A stretch of 64,000 nt of DNA, from NCBI RefSeq assembly GCF_026130175.1, contig NZ_JAIGNI010000021.1:1-64000 (forward strand), read 5' to 3'. The notes beneath the pieces were generated by a model. That model was not told where the DNA came from, did not search any database, and saw only the letters and a program-made list of their open reading frames with translations. Below, in pieces: positions 10,757-20,217 of the stretch. A program made the translations under genes and the position numbers. This DNA is from Lyngbya sp. CCAP 1446/10. GTDB lineage: Bacteria; Cyanobacteriota; Cyanobacteriia; Cyanobacteriales; Microcoleaceae. Position 1 is the first letter of the stretch, and each line of letters opens with the position of its first letter.

Positions 10757-13700
10757 ATGAAAATCGGTTTTCTGGATACCTACACTTGGGATTATAATAT
10801 TGAAACTCCTTATCGCGAACCTTTGGGCGGCACTCAGTCGGCTATTTGTTATTTGGCTGAGGCGTTGGCTGCGCTGGGAAACGAGGTATTTTTACTTAAC
10901 AATACTTCCGAGTCTGGGATGTGGCGCGGTGTTGATTGCAGGCATCGGGTAGGGGATAAAGCTAATTTAGAATTGCTGCGATCGCTCGATTTTTTAGTTA
11001 TAGTCAATATAGTCGGCAAAGCGCTGGAAATTAAGCCGCTTTTGGGCAAACATACTAAGTTAATTTTGTGGATTCATAACGAACCTGGCTTTGTCTTTCT
11101 TGAGAATTTTAATAATTATCAAGAAATTAATGCTTGCAATGCGTTTGTTTTTGTCAGCGACTGGCAGCGCGAGCAATTTCACGCTCGTTTTGGGCTTGAC
11201 TGGAATCGCAGTTATGTTTTAAGAAATGCGATCGCACCTTGTTTTACTAACATTTTTCCCGATAATATTTCAATTCTATCTCAAAAATCTCTGCCGCCAA
11301 TTATAGCTTACACTAGCACTCCTTTTCGCGGATTAGATATTTTATTAAAAGTCTTTCCCGAAATTCGTCAAGCTGTCCCCGGCACCAGATTGAAAGTATT
11401 TTCGAGTATGAAAGTACACCAAATAGATGACAATGATAACGAGCTTTTTTTCGGTAAACTTTACCAAGAGTGTCAGGCAACAGAAGGCGTCGAGTACGTC
11501 GGTTCCGTACCGCAACCCGAACTCGTCCGGCAACTGCGTTCAGTCGCGGTTTTAGCTTACCCGAATACCTATTTGGAAACGTCATCGATTGCCGTGATGG
11601 AGGCGATGGCTAGTGGTTGCCGGATTGTGACGAGTGATTTGGCGGCTTTGCCGGAAACAACGGCTGGATTTGCGCGTCTAGTTTCCATATCAGGGGTAGA
11701 AAATTTAGCATCTGTGACTAATTGGAAGCGTGCCGGCCAACCGGATTGGGAGGGATATACCAGGCGGTTTGTTGAGGCGATAGTCGAAGTTTTAAAAGAG
11801 TGTACTGGTGCAGGCGGCGCAACTGCTGAAACTGAGCTGAGACAGCAGGTAGAATATATAAATAGAGGGTGTATTTGGTCTGGACGAGCCAGAGAGTGGG
11901 TAGAATGGTTGAATAGTATTAGTGTAAAACCTGTAAGAGTGGCAGAGCAAATGATAACAGAGTTTTTGGTGGATTTAGAATCAGCTCAAGCATATTTTGT
12001 CAAGGGAAATCGCCTGAAAGATACAGGAGATATCGGTGGCGCAATCGAGAATTATCAGAAGGCTTTAGAGTGCAATCCCAAAGATGCGGAAGTTCATAAG
12101 AAGTTGGCGGAAGTTTATGTTTTGCAAGGAGAATTTGACCGGGCGATCGCCCAATGTAACCTCGCCATCAAATTTCAACCGAATTTTGCGGCCGCTTATT
12201 TGACAATGGGCAATACTCTGCACGCTCAAAACCATCTGGAAATGGCGATTCAAGCTTACTTGCAAGCTTTAGAAATTCAGCCAGAATTTGCCGAAGCTAG
12301 TGCGAATCTCGGCAGTATGTATTACAAGTTGGGGCAATTGGCAGAGGCGGCAATTGCTTACCAAAAAGCTGTTGCTATTAATCCCCGTTTGTGCTCTGTT
12401 CATTTGATGCTAAGCAGCGTTTTACAGCAGCAAGGAAAGTTAGATGCAGCAATTTCTTGCTGTCAAAAAGTGCTACAAATGCAACCGCGAGATGCCAGCG
12501 CTGCGGAGAAATTATCGAGTTTAATCGCCCAAAAACAGCGGGAAACTACCGACAGCAAATTTCTCGAATTAGAAACGGAATCTGACGAGCAAAAACCAGT
12601 ATCTGTCAACAAAGATGAAGGCTATGGATTGCAGCCTTCGAGTATCAATTTGCCGCCAGCGCCCACTCCTGAAAATTTAAATACTCCGTTTACCAACCCT
12701 GCTGAAATTTCCGAACAAGTTACTTCGCTGAATGTTCCAGATAGCACACAAGTTGCTAATTTTCAAGCAGTAGAACAGTACAAAAAACTGGCAGAAAACT
12801 TTTTAGTTAAAGGTAAAATTCAAGAGGCAATCGCTGCGTGCCACCAAGCGATCAAAATTCGACCTGATTATATCCATGCTTACGTAACTTTAGGCAATGC
12901 TTTGCAAGCGGGAGGCAAAATTGAAGCTGCGATTAGATCCTATTCTCAAGCCCTAGAATTGCAGCCAAATTTTGCGGAAGTGCGCGCCAATATCGGCAGT
13001 ATGTATTTCAAAATGGGGCGTTTGGAAGAGGCGATCGCACATTACCAACAAGCCATCGCCCTGAGTCCTGATTTAGCGGGTGCTCACTGGAATTTAGGCA
13101 AAGTATATCACAAACATGGCAACGTCGAAGCTGCGATCGCCTGTTTTCAAAGAACATCCGAACTTAACCCGCAGCTTGTCGGCGCTGACTTCCACTTTAA
13201 CTTAGGCAATCGGCTTTTCACTCAAGGAAAGCGCGACGAAGCTGTCGAAAGCTACGAAAAGGCGATCGCCCTTAAACCAGATTGGGCAGAGGCCTATGGT
13301 AACATCGGCAGCGCGCGATCGCAACAAGGCAATCTCGATGCCGCCATCACTTCCTACCAGAAAGCCGTAGCCCTCAAGCCGGAATTAGAAGTGCTGCACT
13401 TCAATTTAGCCAATTCTTTCATGCAGCAATACAAGTACGAAGAAGCGATTACTAATTACCAAAATACTCTGAAAATTAAGCCCGATTGGCCGGAAGTTCA
13501 CGCGAACCTCGGCAGTTGTTTTTCCATGCAGGGGCGGCTGGAAGAAGCTTTAGCCAGCTATCAGCAAGCTTTGACACTAAAACCGGATTGGGCAGAGGTT
13601 TACTGCCGGATGGGACACATTCAGAAGCAGGATAAGCCGTTGGATGCGATCGCATATTTTGAAAAGGCGATCGAATGCAACCCCAAATACAGCGAAGCCC

Positions 13701-15205
13701 ACCAACAACTGTGCGACTTACTAAGCCACTCCACCAACCTCGCCAGAGCCCGCAGCGTCGCCGACAAATACTGCGAATTTTGCGGCGACAATGCCCCAGT
13801 CATGTCAGCCACAGCCTACGTTTTTTCCTACCTCCAATCAGGAGTTAGCAAACAGGCAATTCAAAAACTAGAAGAAATCGAAAAACTCTGCTACGAAAAA
13901 GTCGAAACCTTTAGTGTTATCGAACTCAAACTGCTTTACGAAATCTTCCTGTTTGCAGTTTCCCACCTACGAGATCACCGTGAAAAAAATGCCAGTTTCT
14001 ACCGACTAATTGCCAAAGAATACTACCAAAAAGCCGTCCCGTTGCGGCAGCAACCCAACAGAATCAAATCCGCAAATTACCTCACAAAACAACAGCCATT
14101 AAAAATCGGCTTCCTTTCCAAACACTTCCGCCGCCACTCAGTAGGTTGGTGCAGCGAAGCCTTAATTCGCGAATTAAGCCGCATCACCCCCCACGTTCAC
14201 CTTTATGTAACAGGTAAACTCAACCGAGATGAAGTTACGCAACGGTTTGAAGATATGGCCGGCAAGTTTTACTGGCCGAAAAAATATCCCAACGGCTTTG
14301 CTGACGGTGGCGAAATCCTCGCCGAAGTAGTACAAGACGATTTGGATGTTTTGATAGATTTAGACTCGATGACAGTCCCGACAAATGTCGAAGTGCTGTA
14401 TCAATATCCGGCGGGGATTTGCGTTTCTTGGCTGGGATTCGACGCGCCCTATATTTCGGATAATCACTATTTTCTATGCGACGAACATACTCACCCCCCA
14501 GGTGTTGATCAAAATTACTTAGAACAGTTAGTGAGATTGCCTAATTGTTCGGTAGCAATTGGCGAATTGCAAAGCATTCCTGTGAATCGAGAGGCGATTA
14601 GAAATGCTCTGGGGATTGGCTTGGATCAAATGGCTTATCTCTGTGTTGCGCCAGGGAGAAAAACTAATCCTGAAATGGTGCAAGCTCAAGTTAGAATACT
14701 TAAGGAAGTACCAGATAGTATGTTGATTCGCAAGGGCCAAGGCGATCCAGATATTATTCACAGCACTTATCGGGAAGAATGCGATATTCAGGGAGTAGAT
14801 TTTGCTCGAATTAAGTTTATCGGCCAAACTAGAAGTGAAGAGGAACATCGCGCTATTTATTATGTAGCTGACGTGCTGTTAGATTCCTATCCTTATAATG
14901 GTGGGACTCACAATTTAGAGGCTTTGTGGGCGAATTTGCCAGTGGTAACTAGATCCGGCGACCAATATCTTTCACGGATGGGTTATGCTTTTCTAAAAAG
15001 TGCAAATCTTGATGTGGGTGCGGCTTGGAGTTGGGAGGAATACACGCAGTGGGGAGTTAAGTTTGGCCGCGATGCTGGTTTGAGAAATGCGGTGAAACAG
15101 CATTTGATTAAGTCTAAACTGCCAGAAAATCTTGCGCCTTTGTGGAATCCTAAACAATTAGCCCAGGATATGTATGAGGTGTTTCAAAAACTGTTAGCTA
15201 AATAG
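10757..15205 (+). CDS. GT4 - TPR - GT41 (OGT/SPINDLY-like) multidomain glycosyltransferase
   Basis: A 1482-aa fusion. Residues about 1-370 are a GT-B glycosyltransferase of the GT4 type, with the nucleotide-binding-side segment KPLLGKHTKLILWIHNEP and the donor-site block YLETSSIAVMEAMASGCRIV. Residues about 411-590 and 672-990 are TPR arrays (many A.A...Y..AL...P units), split by a Pro/Glu-rich linker. Residues about 1110-1482 are a GT41 domain like O-GlcNAc transferase: LKIGFLSKHFRRHSVGW, CVSWLGFDAPYISD, LVRLPNC, and DVLLDSYPYNGGTHNLEALW. GT41 enzymes glycosylate Ser/Thr of proteins, with the TPRs holding the acceptor. Two catalytic domains in one chain could add two sugars in succession (inference). 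It is monocistronic; no clear Shine-Dalgarno sequence is seen. Confidence 0.92.
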   Translation: MKIGFLDTYTWDYNIETPYREPLGGTQSAICYLAEALAALGNEVFLLNNTSESGMWRGVDCRHRVGDKANLELLRSLDFLVIVNIVGKALEIKPLLGKHTKLILWIHNEPGFVFLENFNNYQEINACNAFVFVSDWQREQFHARFGLDWNRSYVLRNAIAPCFTNIFPDNISILSQKSLPPIIAYTSTPFRGLDILLKVFPEIRQAVPGTRLKVFSSMKVHQIDDNDNELFFGKLYQECQATEGVEYVGSVPQPELVRQLRSVAVLAYPNTYLETSSIAVMEAMASGCRIVTSDLAALPETTAGFARLVSISGVENLASVTNWKRAGQPDWEGYTRRFVEAIVEVLKECTGAGGATAETELRQQVEYINRGCIWSGRAREWVEWLNSISVKPVRVAEQMITEFLVDLESAQAYFVKGNRLKDTGDIGGAIENYQKALECNPKDAEVHKKLAEVYVLQGEFDRAIAQCNLAIKFQPNFAAAYLTMGNTLHAQNHLEMAIQAYLQALEIQPEFAEASANLGSMYYKLGQLAEAAIAYQKAVAINPRLCSVHLMLSSVLQQQGKLDAAISCCQKVLQMQPRDASAAEKLSSLIAQKQRETTDSKFLELETESDEQKPVSVNKDEGYGLQPSSINLPPAPTPENLNTPFTNPAEISEQVTSLNVPDSTQVANFQAVEQYKKLAENFLVKGKIQEAIAACHQAIKIRPDYIHAYVTLGNALQAGGKIEAAIRSYSQALELQPNFAEVRANIGSMYFKMGRLEEAIAHYQQAIALSPDLAGAHWNLGKVYHKHGNVEAAIACFQRTSELNPQLVGADFHFNLGNRLFTQGKRDEAVESYEKAIALKPDWAEAYGNIGSARSQQGNLDAAITSYQKAVALKPELEVLHFNLANSFMQQYKYEEAITNYQNTLKIKPDWPEVHANLGSCFSMQGRLEEALASYQQALTLKPDWAEVYCRMGHIQKQDKPLDAIAYFEKAIECNPKYSEAHQQLCDLLSHSTNLARARSVADKYCEFCGDNAPVMSATAYVFSYLQSGVSKQAIQKLEEIEKLCYEKVETFSVIELKLLYEIFLFAVSHLRDHREKNASFYRLIAKEYYQKAVPLRQQPNRIKSANYLTKQQPLKIGFLSKHFRRHSVGWCSEALIRELSRITPHVHLYVTGKLNRDEVTQRFEDMAGKFYWPKKYPNGFADGGEILAEVVQDDLDVLIDLDSMTVPTNVEVLYQYPAGICVSWLGFDAPYISDNHYFLCDEHTHPPGVDQNYLEQLVRLPNCSVAIGELQSIPVNREAIRNALGIGLDQMAYLCVAPGRKTNPEMVQAQVRILKEVPDSMLIRKGQGDPDIIHSTYREECDIQGVDFARIKFIGQTRSEEEHRAIYYVADVLLDSYPYNGGTHNLEALWANLPVVTRSGDQYLSRMGYAFLKSANLDVGAAWSWEEYTQWGVKFGRDAGLRNAVKQHLIKSKLPENLAPLWNPKQLAQDMYEVFQKLLAK

Positions 15206-15575: not shown

Positions 15576-15582
15576 TCAACTG
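15524..15582. repeat. STRR tract, heptamers CAACAGT / CAACCGT
   Basis: About eight units of the CAACAGT class. The tract overlaps the 3' end of the GGDEF gene and supplies its TGA stop and the last codons (Val-Val-Ser). Confidence 0.85.
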
Positions 15583-18500
15583 ACTACTCGATCGCGCCCG
15601 CCAGACTTAGCCCGATACAGCGCCTTATCAGCAGCTTCAATCAGCATCTTCGGCGAATTTTGACCTTCAGAAATCGTCGCCACCCCCATGCTGAGAGTCA
15701 CACAATCGGTGACAACGGACTTGAGGTGGGGAATTGCTAAAGCTTTGACGCGCTGGCGGATTCCCTCAGCAAAAGCCTGTGCAGCCGCGATATCCGTATT
15801 TGGCAAAATTACCCCAAATTCCTCGCCACCGTACCTAGCAGCCAAATAAAGGCGTTCTGCGGGTGCGTTCGTGCAACAATCCCCGATCGCCCTCGCCACT
15901 TGTTGCAAACAAGCATCCCCAGCCTGGTGGCCGTAGTTGTCGTTATAAAGTTTAAAACAGTCAATATCGCACATGATCAAAGATAGCGGTTCCGAACTGC
16001 TCGATAGTTCCCATTCGCGGTTAATCACCTCGTCAAACCGGCGGCGGTTAGCTAGCTGAGTCAGACTGTCCAAATTCGCCAACCCGTCCAACCGCTGGTT
16101 AGCAACAGCTAACTGCTGGTAAAGTAAAGATTGTTCGATCGCGATCGCCACTTGAGTAGCCAACTGACTCAGCAAATCCATGTCAAACTGCTGCCACTCG
16201 CGGGGTCCCGAACAGTGGTGGGCAATCATTAAACCCCACAGTTTCGGCACTTGACAAGAAGGATTACCGTCACGGTGTTCCATTCCCTGCTGCACAATAG
16301 GCACCACCAAATTCGCCTTCACCTGACACTGGGCCAAAAAATTGACGTGACACTTGGTCAAATTAGAACCCTGAATATCCTCTATGGCGCGAATGCGGCC
16401 GTTTAAATACTGTCCGATGTAAGTATTAGCAAAACAGCAATCGTCAATTCCCATCCCCTTCAGTGGCATCCATCCTTCTCCAACCGACTCCACCACCACA
16501 TCTCCGTTCCAATCTGGGCGGAACCGGAAAAGAATCACCCGATCCGTTGCCAAAAACTCCCGCACTTCCGCTACTGTAGTGTTGAGAATCTCTTGGAGAT
16601 CGAGAGAAGAACGGATGCGTGATTGAATCTGCGCGATCAAGCGTTCCCGTTCTATTTGTTGCCGCAGCGCGACTTGGGCTTGCTTACTGTGAGTAATGTC
16701 CCGACCTTCCGGCAGCAACAATACTATTTTGCCAGTTTCGTCCGCCACCGGTTTGAGAGAAAAATCGATAGTTGCCGTGCGGTTTGCACCTTGAACTTCC
16801 ACTTCATAGCGGACAAATTCACCTTTTGCCGATCGAGAAATCGCCTCTTGCAACTGTTCCCGAACTTCCTGAGAAACTCCCCACCAAGGCCCCTGCCAAA
16901 ACGGACGATTTGCCACATCCCGCAGCTTAATTCCCGCAAAATCCAGAGAAGTTTGGTTAGCTTCCAGTAGAGTGCCGTCCGGTTTCAACAAGCTGACAAA
17001 TTGGAACGAAGAATCAAAAATTGCCCGAAAGCGCCGTTGAGAATCTCCCAACATTGCCGTCACCTTTTCACGAGAAGTAATATCGCGGAAGCGCCACACC
17101 CTGCCAATAATATTTTGTCCGACTCGAATCGGCTGCGTGTAGCGCTCAAAAGTCCGTCCGTCTTTAAAATCGAGAATATCGCAGCCATTAGACTCCGCAT
17201 CGCTATAAATTTCTTTAACTCTCTGCAAAAAATCCCTCGGATCTTTAACTTGCTTAGTAAGAAATGTCAGCCGCACCGTTCTATCCAGCGAGTTTCTAAC
17301 TTCTTCATGAATCCCCCACATTTGAACTAATTTTTCGTTAAAACTAATTAATTCTCCGCTGGTAGTAACGGCAAGAATGCCGTCTGCTGTTGCTTCCATA
17401 GTAGCGTGCAACAAAGAGCGCGAACGCTCTAATTCTGCTGCGATTAATTTGCGTTCCGTGAGGTTTCGCACTGCTTTAACCTGCACCAAACGACCTTCGT
17501 AAACTACGAATTTGCTGCGCACATCAGCAGGAAAAGCAGTTCCGTCCCGCCTGAGAAAAATCGCTTCACAGACGGTATTGCTGGCTGCGGAAATCATTTG
17601 CGGTGCCACTTTGTAAGATTTCGGCGATAGCAGTTCCAGCAAGCTCATTCCCACCATTTCCGCAGGTTCGTAAGCAAACAGCTTAGCAAAATTGCTGCTG
17701 ACGCTCAAAATTGTGTCGCGGTCAGCGACGGCAACTGCTTCAAAATAAGCTTCACATTCGAGCAATTGTGCTGCTGTGTTGCCGCCACTCCCCCCGGCAT
17801 AGCTGTTGTTGATTAGCTGTTGCATTTGCATATTTGCCGAGTACAGAGCGGCCATTGCCTGCCGATACATAGCAGTGCGTTTCTCGACTTTTTCAGTGAG
17901 GCGAGCGCGATTTTCTCGCAGTTCTCTTTCGACTGTAATTAAATCCGTAATATCTACTGCAAATACGATCACGCCAGCCACTTGCCCTGAGTCGTCACGG
18001 TAAGGTATTGTATCTGTCCGCACCCAGCATTTTTGACCGGAGGAAGTTGGCAGCAGTTCGACTTTTCCCAGTTTAGGAACGCCGGAATTGATTACTTCCA
18101 AATCTTCTAAATAATATTGCTCTGCTTCGTCTGGATAGATTTCATAAAAAGATTTTCCTTCTAGTTGATTTGCTGGAAAACCTCTCGATGCAGCGGCGGC
18201 TTTGTTAATTCGCAGCAGGCGGCTTTCCGTATCTTTGTACCAAATCATCGCCGGCACGGAATCAAAAATAATTTGCTGTTCTTGCTGCTGCTGACGCATT
18301 TCTGCTTCTGCTTGTTTTCTTTTAATTATTTCTTTTTGTAGTTTTTCGTTAGCTTTTTTGAGTTCGGAAGTGCCTGTTTCTACTGTTTTTTCTAATTGAT
18401 CGTAGTATTTTTTCAGCAAGTTTTGATGCTGTTCGCGTCGGATTTCTTCTAGTTTCAATCTTTCGCTAGCCTCCCAACTTTCCGATACAAAGTCTGCTAA

Positions 18501-19517
18501 AATTTGGCTGAATTCCTGTTCTTCTTCCGTCCACTCGCTGCCAGAATTTTCCCGTTCTACTCTGACAATTCCCGCCATTTTGCCTGCTAGCATAATAGGT
18601 AAGTGCAACAGGGAAGGAGAGCCTTGATCGGCAAAATAAAGACTGGCAAATTCTCGCGTTATCGGGTCATTTTCTGCTGCCACGGTTGCGATCGCACTTG
18701 CGGATTTTAAAGCTTCAAAATATGCCTGACAGTCGGCTGCTGTGACGATTATTTGTACGGAATGGAGTTGAGTATTTTGTTCGTAAAGGTCGATGCAGTG
18801 AAGCTGCGTTTTGTCTTCGCCGTACAGCCAAATGCTGGCTCGATCGCAGTTTAAAATATTGACAGCCGTTTCTGTGACTTCGCGGATAAATTCTTCTAGA
18901 TTGTTGCGTTCTTTAAGTTGACTTTTGGCTAATTTTGCGATCGCCAAAGCTGAACGGTGCCAATTGTCCTGAGAGTTTGGTGGCGCTGCGGAGGGCGAAG
19001 TGGCTTTAATTTCTTCGCAAACTAACAGTACAACCGGCTTTTGGAAATTGGCAACTGAGCGACCATCGGTATTTTCCTCTATTTTCCATTCTACCCCAGG
19101 CATGGCGCGCGCGGTTGTTTTTACCCAGATAATCCTGCCGTCTTTGCAAGTCAAGCCGCCTTCCCAACAGGCCACTTTTGGAGTTGACGTGCCGTTTTTC
19201 GGGTGAACCAATCTCGCAAATTCTGACTGCATCTTCTCTTGATCTTGGCAGTAAAAGATGTTAAAAATTGAATGACAAATTAATTCCTGCGACCTGTAGG
19301 CGAGGCGATACTGGCCGAATTGATTGAGCGAAAAAACTCTTCCCAAAGCATCTAGAACGAAATAAATGCCCGGAAAATTGTCGTAGAGAGTTTGATACCA
19401 ATCCTGTTCGACTTGTTTGTTGGACAAAACTTTCGTGACTGCGAGAGCGTCGCCCGTGCCTGTCAAGTGAGAATTGTTGGTTTCTGGGTTGCTTGAATTA
19501 CTTTTTTTAGCAAACAC
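15576..19517 (-). CDS. PAS/GAF sensor diguanylate cyclase with DXCF cyanobacteriochrome domain
   Basis: A 1313-aa soluble protein. Order: PAS (about 35-150), GAF (about 200-350), coiled coil, several PAS domains (about 430-960), a second GAF (about 980-1145), then GGDEF (about 1150-1313). The second GAF has the marks of a DXCF cyanobacteriochrome: Asp1026-Cys1027-Cys1028-Phe1029, and the bilin-binding Cys1056-His1057 in LTKCHVNFLAQCQVKANLVV. The two key cysteines are 28 residues apart, as in TePixJ (Cys494/Cys522). The cyclase active site GGEEF at 1230-1234 is intact; the usual RxxD inhibitory site is absent (R-L-Y-L there). It should make cyclic di-GMP under light control. The start is GTG 19517; no ATG is near. 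Photochemistry is inferred. Confidence 0.9.
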   Translation of the reverse strand: MFAKKSNSSNPETNNSHLTGTGDALAVTKVLSNKQVEQDWYQTLYDNFPGIYFVLDALGRVFSLNQFGQYRLAYRSQELICHSIFNIFYCQDQEKMQSEFARLVHPKNGTSTPKVACWEGGLTCKDGRIIWVKTTARAMPGVEWKIEENTDGRSVANFQKPVVLLVCEEIKATSPSAAPPNSQDNWHRSALAIAKLAKSQLKERNNLEEFIREVTETAVNILNCDRASIWLYGEDKTQLHCIDLYEQNTQLHSVQIIVTAADCQAYFEALKSASAIATVAAENDPITREFASLYFADQGSPSLLHLPIMLAGKMAGIVRVERENSGSEWTEEEQEFSQILADFVSESWEASERLKLEEIRREQHQNLLKKYYDQLEKTVETGTSELKKANEKLQKEIIKRKQAEAEMRQQQQEQQIIFDSVPAMIWYKDTESRLLRINKAAAASRGFPANQLEGKSFYEIYPDEAEQYYLEDLEVINSGVPKLGKVELLPTSSGQKCWVRTDTIPYRDDSGQVAGVIVFAVDITDLITVERELRENRARLTEKVEKRTAMYRQAMAALYSANMQMQQLINNSYAGGSGGNTAAQLLECEAYFEAVAVADRDTILSVSSNFAKLFAYEPAEMVGMSLLELLSPKSYKVAPQMISAASNTVCEAIFLRRDGTAFPADVRSKFVVYEGRLVQVKAVRNLTERKLIAAELERSRSLLHATMEATADGILAVTTSGELISFNEKLVQMWGIHEEVRNSLDRTVRLTFLTKQVKDPRDFLQRVKEIYSDAESNGCDILDFKDGRTFERYTQPIRVGQNIIGRVWRFRDITSREKVTAMLGDSQRRFRAIFDSSFQFVSLLKPDGTLLEANQTSLDFAGIKLRDVANRPFWQGPWWGVSQEVREQLQEAISRSAKGEFVRYEVEVQGANRTATIDFSLKPVADETGKIVLLLPEGRDITHSKQAQVALRQQIERERLIAQIQSRIRSSLDLQEILNTTVAEVREFLATDRVILFRFRPDWNGDVVVESVGEGWMPLKGMGIDDCCFANTYIGQYLNGRIRAIEDIQGSNLTKCHVNFLAQCQVKANLVVPIVQQGMEHRDGNPSCQVPKLWGLMIAHHCSGPREWQQFDMDLLSQLATQVAIAIEQSLLYQQLAVANQRLDGLANLDSLTQLANRRRFDEVINREWELSSSSEPLSLIMCDIDCFKLYNDNYGHQAGDACLQQVARAIGDCCTNAPAERLYLAARYGGEEFGVILPNTDIAAAQAFAEGIRQRVKALAIPHLKSVVTDCVTLSMGVATISEGQNSPKMLIEAADKALYRAKSGGRDRVVS

Positions 19518-19812: not shown

Positions 19813-20217
19813 ATGATAACACTCAAATATCTCGTGTTGGGATTGACTTACTTGGGTTTCGGTTTGGGATATTTGCCCGGACTGCGGATGAACCGGGCAG
19901 CGATCGCAATTGTCGGGTCAGCTTTTGCCGTAGCTTTGGGGATACTCGACCTGAAAACTGCTTGGCAGGCGATCGACCCTGGTACGATCGTTTTTTTGCT
20001 AGGAATGATGGTCGTCAATTCGGCTTTGGGAGCATCCGGTTCTTTTCAACCAGCTTTAGAGTCTTCAATTCGCTTTACTCATTCTCCTTTGGGCATTTTA
20101 GCAGCGGTTACTTTTGGCAAAAAGGCGATCGACATTACCCGATACTTCGAGATAATTCCTTCTTCCCTTCCCCCTCTTCCTTCGCGACAAGAGCGGTTAC
20201 GCGCGGGCTTCACCTAA
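19813..20217 (+). pseudogene. Truncated anion permease (ArsB/NhaD/SLC13-like), N-terminal fragment
   Basis: The first about 105 residues look like the start of an ion-transporter-superfamily permease: hydrophobic helices YLVLGLTYLGFGLGYLPGL, IAIVGSAFAVALGILDL and the conserved IDPGTIVFLLGMMVVNSALG. Full-length members have about 400 residues and ten or more helices. Here the similarity stops near base 20120 (LAAVTFG) and an unrelated tail, IDITRYFEIIPSSLPPLPSR, runs to a stop inside the end of the convergent GH38 gene. I read it as a 5' remnant left by a deletion that removed about three quarters of the gene. A working 134-aa product is unlikely. Confidence 0.7.

Follow-up and report, generated by a model that had tools for sequence, protein, structure and literature searches.

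Gene and predicted photosensory domain

The window analysed here is a stretch of 64,000 nt from Lyngbya sp. CCAP 1446/10 (contig NZ_JAIGNI010000021.1, positions 1-64,000, forward strand), and our subject is one large gene on its reverse strand, at positions 15576..19517, which starts with GTG and encodes 1313 amino acids in the domain order PAS-GAF-PAS-PAS-PAS-PAS-CBCR GAF-GGDEF, where CBCR stands for cyanobacteriochrome. We consider it highly likely that the product is a DXCF cyanobacteriochrome diguanylate cyclase working like SesA (Tlr0924); it is very probably a sensor in which a two-cysteine bilin chromophore switches on messenger production under coloured light. The direct basis for this reading consists of motifs, alignment, conservation, the length of a linker, the loss of the product-inhibition site (I-site) and the presence of PcyA-type genes, and from these we infer the binding of bilin, the colours, the direction of light control and the cyclase activity.

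A Pfam search with the whole protein matched GAF at residues 973-1127 and GGDEF at 1147-1310 (E 6.8e-47), together with PAS and GAF matches further upstream. From Pfam and alignment to the Protein Data Bank (PDB) sequence 3vv4, the predicted bilin-binding GAF domain spans residues 965-1140 (16098..16625; this and all features of the gene given below lie on the reverse strand). Motif search and alignments locate within it the DXCF motif D1026-C1027-C1028-F1029 (16431..16442), whose Cys1028 is the predicted second, C10-ligating cysteine, and C1056-H1057 (16347..16352), the canonical bilin attachment cysteine and its histidine, the class having His or Tyr after this cysteine. The diguanylate cyclase (GGDEF) domain, residues 1147-1310 (15588..16079), was delimited by Pfam and alignment and carries the active-site signature GGEEF at residues 1230-1234 (15816..15830), found by motif search and in the alignments. 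A preliminary description of this DNA had given the same open reading frame and the same places for DCCF, CH and GGEEF, all of which our frame and motif check reproduced; it had also reported several PAS domains and another GAF domain upstream, and Pfam matches were found for these, PAS1 and PAS4 being weak.

Conservation and the bilin pocket

A scan of a genome collection returned 25 loci, made up of 22 orthologues (73-92% identity, with names mostly Microcoleus, Tychonema or Oscillatoriales/Microcoleaceae) and three loci matching the PAS parts only. No variation is seen at D1026, C1027, C1028, F1029, C1056 or H1057 in 21 of 23 rows, namely the window and 20 of the 22 orthologues; the other two (L041 and L042) are gapped at the bilin motifs, their frames being broken and only the single best piece having been aligned. 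Invariance of all six residues across the covering rows argues that the motif pattern is not due to chance. In the cyclase domain, DIDxFKxxND, GHxxGD and GGEEF are each invariant in 20 of 20 rows, which agrees with the earlier statement that the GGEEF site is intact. The first aligned residue is Val in all 22 rows reaching the start, in an alignment made at the level of protein residues. Three metagenome-assembled genomes (L036, L041 and L042) have frames broken at about residues 1130, 880 and 920, through assembly error or decay, and the L036 break falls between the bilin GAF and GGDEF domains.

We compared a profile of the 21 orthologous GAF domains with PDB sequences and found 25 matches at E values up to 1e-10, which we take to be mostly cyanobacteriochromes with some phytochromes. 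The match to 3vv4 ranks fourth (E 9.5e-38) and runs without a gap from D-P-C-F through C-H; the chain is named "Methyl-accepting chemotaxis protein" in the match table, and presumably it is TePixJ. Another of the matches, 4GLQ, is named TePixJg in a figure legend of PMC11284453. The assignment to the dual-cysteine DXCF class made in the preliminary description is borne out here, as both cysteines align with those of the 3vv4 D-P-C-F and C-H with no gap between, and the alignment does not place either of them outside the chromophore pocket. Red/green (XRG) domains, according to the introduction of PMC11284453, carry the Trp of a WXDXXL motif. Residue 1024, two before the Asp, is Ile in the window protein and is Trp in none of the 21 covering rows, so that the protein lacks this red/green-type feature, the Asp of WXDXXL being equated with Asp1026 by our own alignment.

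For the wider family we used 386 cyanobacterial genomes, evenly sampled from a larger group, scoring up to five candidates per genome in a search with the CBCR-GGDEF part and up to three in one with PAS2-PAS5, so that the resulting counts are lower bounds. Matches to CBCR-GGDEF at E values up to 1e-45 occur in at least 102 of the 386 genomes, some matching a single domain. A set of 90 rows was made from the window, 29 search loci and the 60 best-ranked near-full-length matches of the CBCR-GGDEF search. The canonical cysteine is present in 66 of these, 42 of which also read [D/E]xCF (34 with Asp), and in all 42 the two cysteines are 28 residues apart. The 28-residue spacing between Cys1028 and Cys1056 had been put forward earlier as the same as that in TePixJ; the number is correct, and being general it supports membership of the class, while a special link to TePixJ is rejected. 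Residue X of the motif in the 42 rows is Pro (23), Thr (9), Cys (6), Ser (2), Ala (1) or Tyr (1).

In a tree of the 66 rows, from which the 24 without the canonical cysteine were left out, the six same-genus rows group together as a single clade (100/100), and L072, which belongs to a different genus within the family, joins them (100/99). Of the six same-genus genomes, four are apparently the assemblies of L021, L022, L027 and L030, which means that the genus rows cannot count as independent of the 22 orthologue loci. L072 is a 714-aa open frame with 64% identity over CBCR-GGDEF; it shares the loss of the I-site (ERLYLVARY), an insertion at the same place and a cysteine at the 1064 position (see below), and it differs in reading DPCF rather than DCCF, in an insertion without cysteine and in its shorter open frame. 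A small CBCR-GGDEF clade elsewhere (L096, L097 and L102) reads DCYF at the motif, with Cys at X and Tyr at the usual position of the second cysteine, and CQ at the canonical site.

The linker from the CBCR to the GGDEF domain (window residues 1108-1149) is 42 residues long in 85 of the 90 rows and 35 in the other five, a difference of one heptad that fits helical coupling, in a set chosen by similarity to the query, which favours equal length. Three listed rows with the 35-residue linker (L074, L075 and L077) are of EPCF type, and their open frames are about 1600 aa long.

A profile search of the organism's own genome found three near-full-length Fe_bilin_red (PcyA-type) genes and two fragments. 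The genome also holds 36 matches to this bilin domain. From the 20 best own-genome loci we took 28 GAF pieces, dropped eight of 100 aa or less, and found DxCF with the canonical cysteine in 8 of the 19 other pieces above 100 aa, so the cell has several DXCF domains, of which this is one. There are 23 GGDEF matches, 22 of them above the cut-off, and 18 EAL match stretches, some split within one protein.

Loss of the product-inhibition site

The RxxD motif expected five residues before GG[D/E]EF is absent from the window protein, as the preliminary description had noted: in front of GGEEF it reads ERLYLAARY (nine residues), most relatives having RxxDLVARY there. The site itself, identified by motif search and alignments, is occupied by E1221-R-L-Y1224 (15846..15857), and the sole RxxD in the GGDEF domain is RRFD at 1159, not at the inhibition site. 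This lineage has other residues in place of the motif and a loop four residues longer, and L072 is alike; 3i5a, of the WspR family, reads R-P-S-D at the site and has a loop four residues shorter. The motif is present in 70 of the 90 CBCR/GAF-GGDEF rows and absent in 20. Among the 36 DXCF relatives outside the genus it is present in 27; nine do without it, seven of them having lost the Arg and kept the Asp, so the loss is not unique to this lineage.

From these sequences we infer a lineage-wide loss of feedback, and since the RxxD site is gone, the output should escape inhibition by its product. According to PMC5871770, SesA is product-inhibited, with a half-maximal inhibitory concentration (IC50) of about 1 uM cyclic di-GMP (c-di-GMP), through RXXD at 676, and the R676A variant is not inhibited. 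Since inhibition of SesA needed Arg676, the earlier suggestion that output may not be feedback-limited is well founded. The same source describes Synechocystis over-expressing SesA R676A as inviable in white light and as growing normally in green plus red light. Judged by its residues at this site, the window protein is a natural counterpart of SesA R676A, though the 20 related rows just mentioned are without RxxD as well.

Upstream domains and neighbouring genes

When Pfam was run segment by segment, PAS2, PAS3, PAS5 and the first GAF region scored above the cut-offs, and PAS1 and PAS4 fell below them when excised. The weak PAS1 region comprises residues 41-140 (19098..19397; PAS_3, E 6.8e-5, below the Pfam cut-off), and is followed by the first GAF region at 191-352 (18462..18947; GAF, E 2.8e-13), PAS2 at 416-527 (17937..18272; PAS_4, E 3.7e-19) and PAS3 at 586-691 (17445..17762; PAS_9, E 2.4e-7). 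PAS4, residues 695-821 (17055..17435), is weak, with PAS_8 at E 0.0012 when excised alone, below the cut-off; in the whole-protein search the best PAS_8 stretch was 702-744, with an E value of 3.4e-12 that applies to the whole protein. PAS5 lies at 825-946 (16680..17045; PAS_4, E 1.7e-9). Binding of bilin by the first GAF through a Cys-His pair is rejected because that domain contains no such dipeptide; in the whole protein CH occurs at 81 and 1056 only. A full-length match to PAS2-PAS5 was found in six same-genus genomes and in no other of the 386, with partial matches in at least 30 further genomes.

Gene order around the 22 orthologues is mostly kept. On one side, 20 loci extend beyond 851 bases and 19 of them have a GH38 alpha-mannosidase gene, which is missing in L036; L021 and L039 are too short on this side to tell. 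On the other side, a glycosyltransferase with tetratricopeptide repeats (TPR) is present in 13 of the 17 loci reaching more than 5 kb (missing in L030, L031, L035 and L036). At 10757-15205 on the forward strand, the window has a gene whose 1482-aa product matches a group-1-type glycosyltransferase close to the N-terminus, carries many TPR and matches GT41 (O-GlcNAc-transferase-like) at the C-terminus. At 19813-20217, also on the forward strand, a 134-aa frame matches the first quarter only of the CitMHS transporter family; pieces of this sequence, often short fragments, stand directly upstream of the cyclase gene on the opposite strand in 19 of the 22 orthologue loci, and the frame is either a long-kept relic or a short gene. 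A plasmid search returned 10 records, all below 60% identity.

Alternative explanations

Several observations weigh against a light-controlled cyclase of the DXCF type. The three top PDB sequences (6oap, 8k9o and 6mgh) are without Cys at the DXCF position and are not DXCF domains. AlphaFold models, made from a shallow 20-row alignment for CBCR-GGDEF (predicted local distance difference test, pLDDT, 56.8) and from a likewise shallow 21-row alignment for the CBCR alone (pLDDT 44.4), were too poor for a check of the pocket. The literature matches listed included neither a spectrum nor an enzyme assay of this protein, and no title or opening of an abstract among them dealt with it, the CBCR literature being largely in subscription journals. 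Finally, across 18 of the 22 orthologues the mean identity to the window is 87-92% for PAS2-PAS5, higher than the 84% of the bilin domain, which suggests that light may be a secondary input.

The alternative that survives best, although we think it rather unlikely, is that the second cysteine stands outside a blue/green cycle, either because phycocyanobilin is kept or because there is no reversible C10 ligation, giving some other pair of colours, for example with a red-absorbing photoproduct. Tlr0924 itself is described in PMC4067208 as holding a mixture of phycocyanobilin and phycoviolobilin with red- and green-absorbing products, and several DXCF-related tunings are described in PMC11284453 and PMC5240096. 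Against this, our protein retains the motif's Asp, Cys and Phe, the spacing, and the His that follows the canonical cysteine.

It is considerably less probable that the protein is mainly a PAS/GAF-controlled cyclase to which the bilin domain contributes only a minor input or is vestigial. The stronger conservation of PAS2-PAS5 speaks for it, as does a second same-genus GAF-GGDEF family (an own copy, L133, at G000:C72:71004-72017, and L114, L119, L124, L128 and L130) that is without the canonical bilin cysteine in the alignment. At the DXCF position this paralogue family reads NFCF in four of six rows, the own copy having KFCI and one row NFSF, and such proteins may attach bilin by the other cysteine or not at all. 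Unlike the paralogue, the orthologues of the window protein hold every bilin motif residue invariant wherever the motif is covered.

The last alternative concerns additional cysteines. We called a column lineage-specific when the window residue occurs in at most two of the 36 DXCF relatives. The bilin domain has 176 columns, 95 of them invariant in the 21 orthologue rows; 40 are lineage-specific, and the 13 of these 40 that are invariant include all of Cys1027, Cys1064 and Cys1088, for which the chance that all three would be invariant is about 0.03 by a hand calculation made after seeing the data. Cys1027 adjoins the predicted photoactive Cys1028, and a cysteine at X is found in the six rows of the same-genus clade and in none of the 36 other DXCF relatives. 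Cys1064 (16326..16328), placed by alignment, has a counterpart in one of the 36, L072. An insertion of about 13 residues, placed between two strands at about residues 1078-1090 (16248..16286, the exact edges depending on the alignment), contains Cys1088; 33 of the 36 do without this insertion, L134 having one residue there and L072 and L073 longer insertions without Cys at the column.

Cys1027, with Cys1064 and Cys1088, might act as a thiol/redox gate, in which oxidation would form a disulfide that captures Cys1028 and blocks the blue state, so that light would be reported only when the cell is reduced. The invariance and lineage specificity of the three cysteines favour such a gate, which we nevertheless regard as improbable, as neighbouring cysteines seldom form a disulfide, which is strained, and the cytoplasm is usually reducing, no paper in the literature searched pairs "cyanobacteriochrome" with "DCCF", and no usable structure gives the distances between the cysteines. 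It is equally doubtful that this is a lineage-wide photoreceptor whose vicinal Cys-Cys pair, aided by Cys1064 and Cys1088, makes the ligation of bilin respond to thiol redox state and couples colour and redox to a feedback-free c-di-GMP synthase.

Proposed mechanism and relation to known systems

As a SesA-like DXCF cyclase, the protein would attach phycocyanobilin to Cys1056 at ring A, and the bilin domain would probably turn a large part of it into phycoviolobilin. Without light, Cys1028 would also bond the bilin at C10, giving a state that absorbs blue or violet; blue light would flip C15=C16 and free Cys1028, leading to a state that absorbs green or teal, depending on the tuning residues (the beta2 and helix-4 Phe), from which green light would return it. 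The change would pass through the helical linker to the GGDEF domain, with c-di-GMP synthesis most probable in the state formed under blue light, as is the case in SesA. With RxxD gone, the limits on output would be light, phosphodiesterases and the PAS/GAF inputs upstream, not feedback from the product.

Among studied proteins, SesA of Thermosynechococcus is functionally the closest relative, a likeness taken from published descriptions. It is entered in a table of PMC8846402 as a blue (+), green (-) diguanylate cyclase, and PMC4067208 and PMC4223177 give Tlr0924 the cysteines Cys499 and Cys527 and a conversion of phycocyanobilin to phycoviolobilin; the DXCF bilin GAF, the cyclase output and the spacing of 28 (499/527) are thus shared. 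SesA differs in having its RXXD, whereas the window protein has none and is predicted to have PAS domains and a GAF in front. The TePixJ GAF domain (PDB 4GLQ), a blue/green DXCF domain, has the same spacing; 3vv4, presumably TePixJ, has in addition the gap-free match from DXCF to CH and differs in that its output is not GGDEF, X is Pro and not Cys, and an insertion of the Cys1088 type is absent. Cph2 of Synechocystis also has a bilin GAF controlling a cyclase, blue (+)/green (-) in the table of PMC8846402, and differs in carrying a GAF-PHY phytochrome module as well; this comparison is by description only.

The protein is of a known and widespread kind of photoreceptor, to which this lineage adds the loss of the feedback motif and extra conserved cysteines. 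The latter, invariant and with one of them adjoining the photoactive cysteine, are a simple question for mutagenesis. In Thermosynechococcus, control of c-di-GMP by the colour of light sets cell aggregation, and the physiological importance of product inhibition is called unresolved, both according to PMC5871770. Retention of a DXCF cyclase that lacks the inhibition site makes this lineage a natural comparison for how cells avoid runaway c-di-GMP; candidate ways in which it may avoid harm of the R676A type are a weak cyclase, tight control through the PAS domains, and EAL enzymes.

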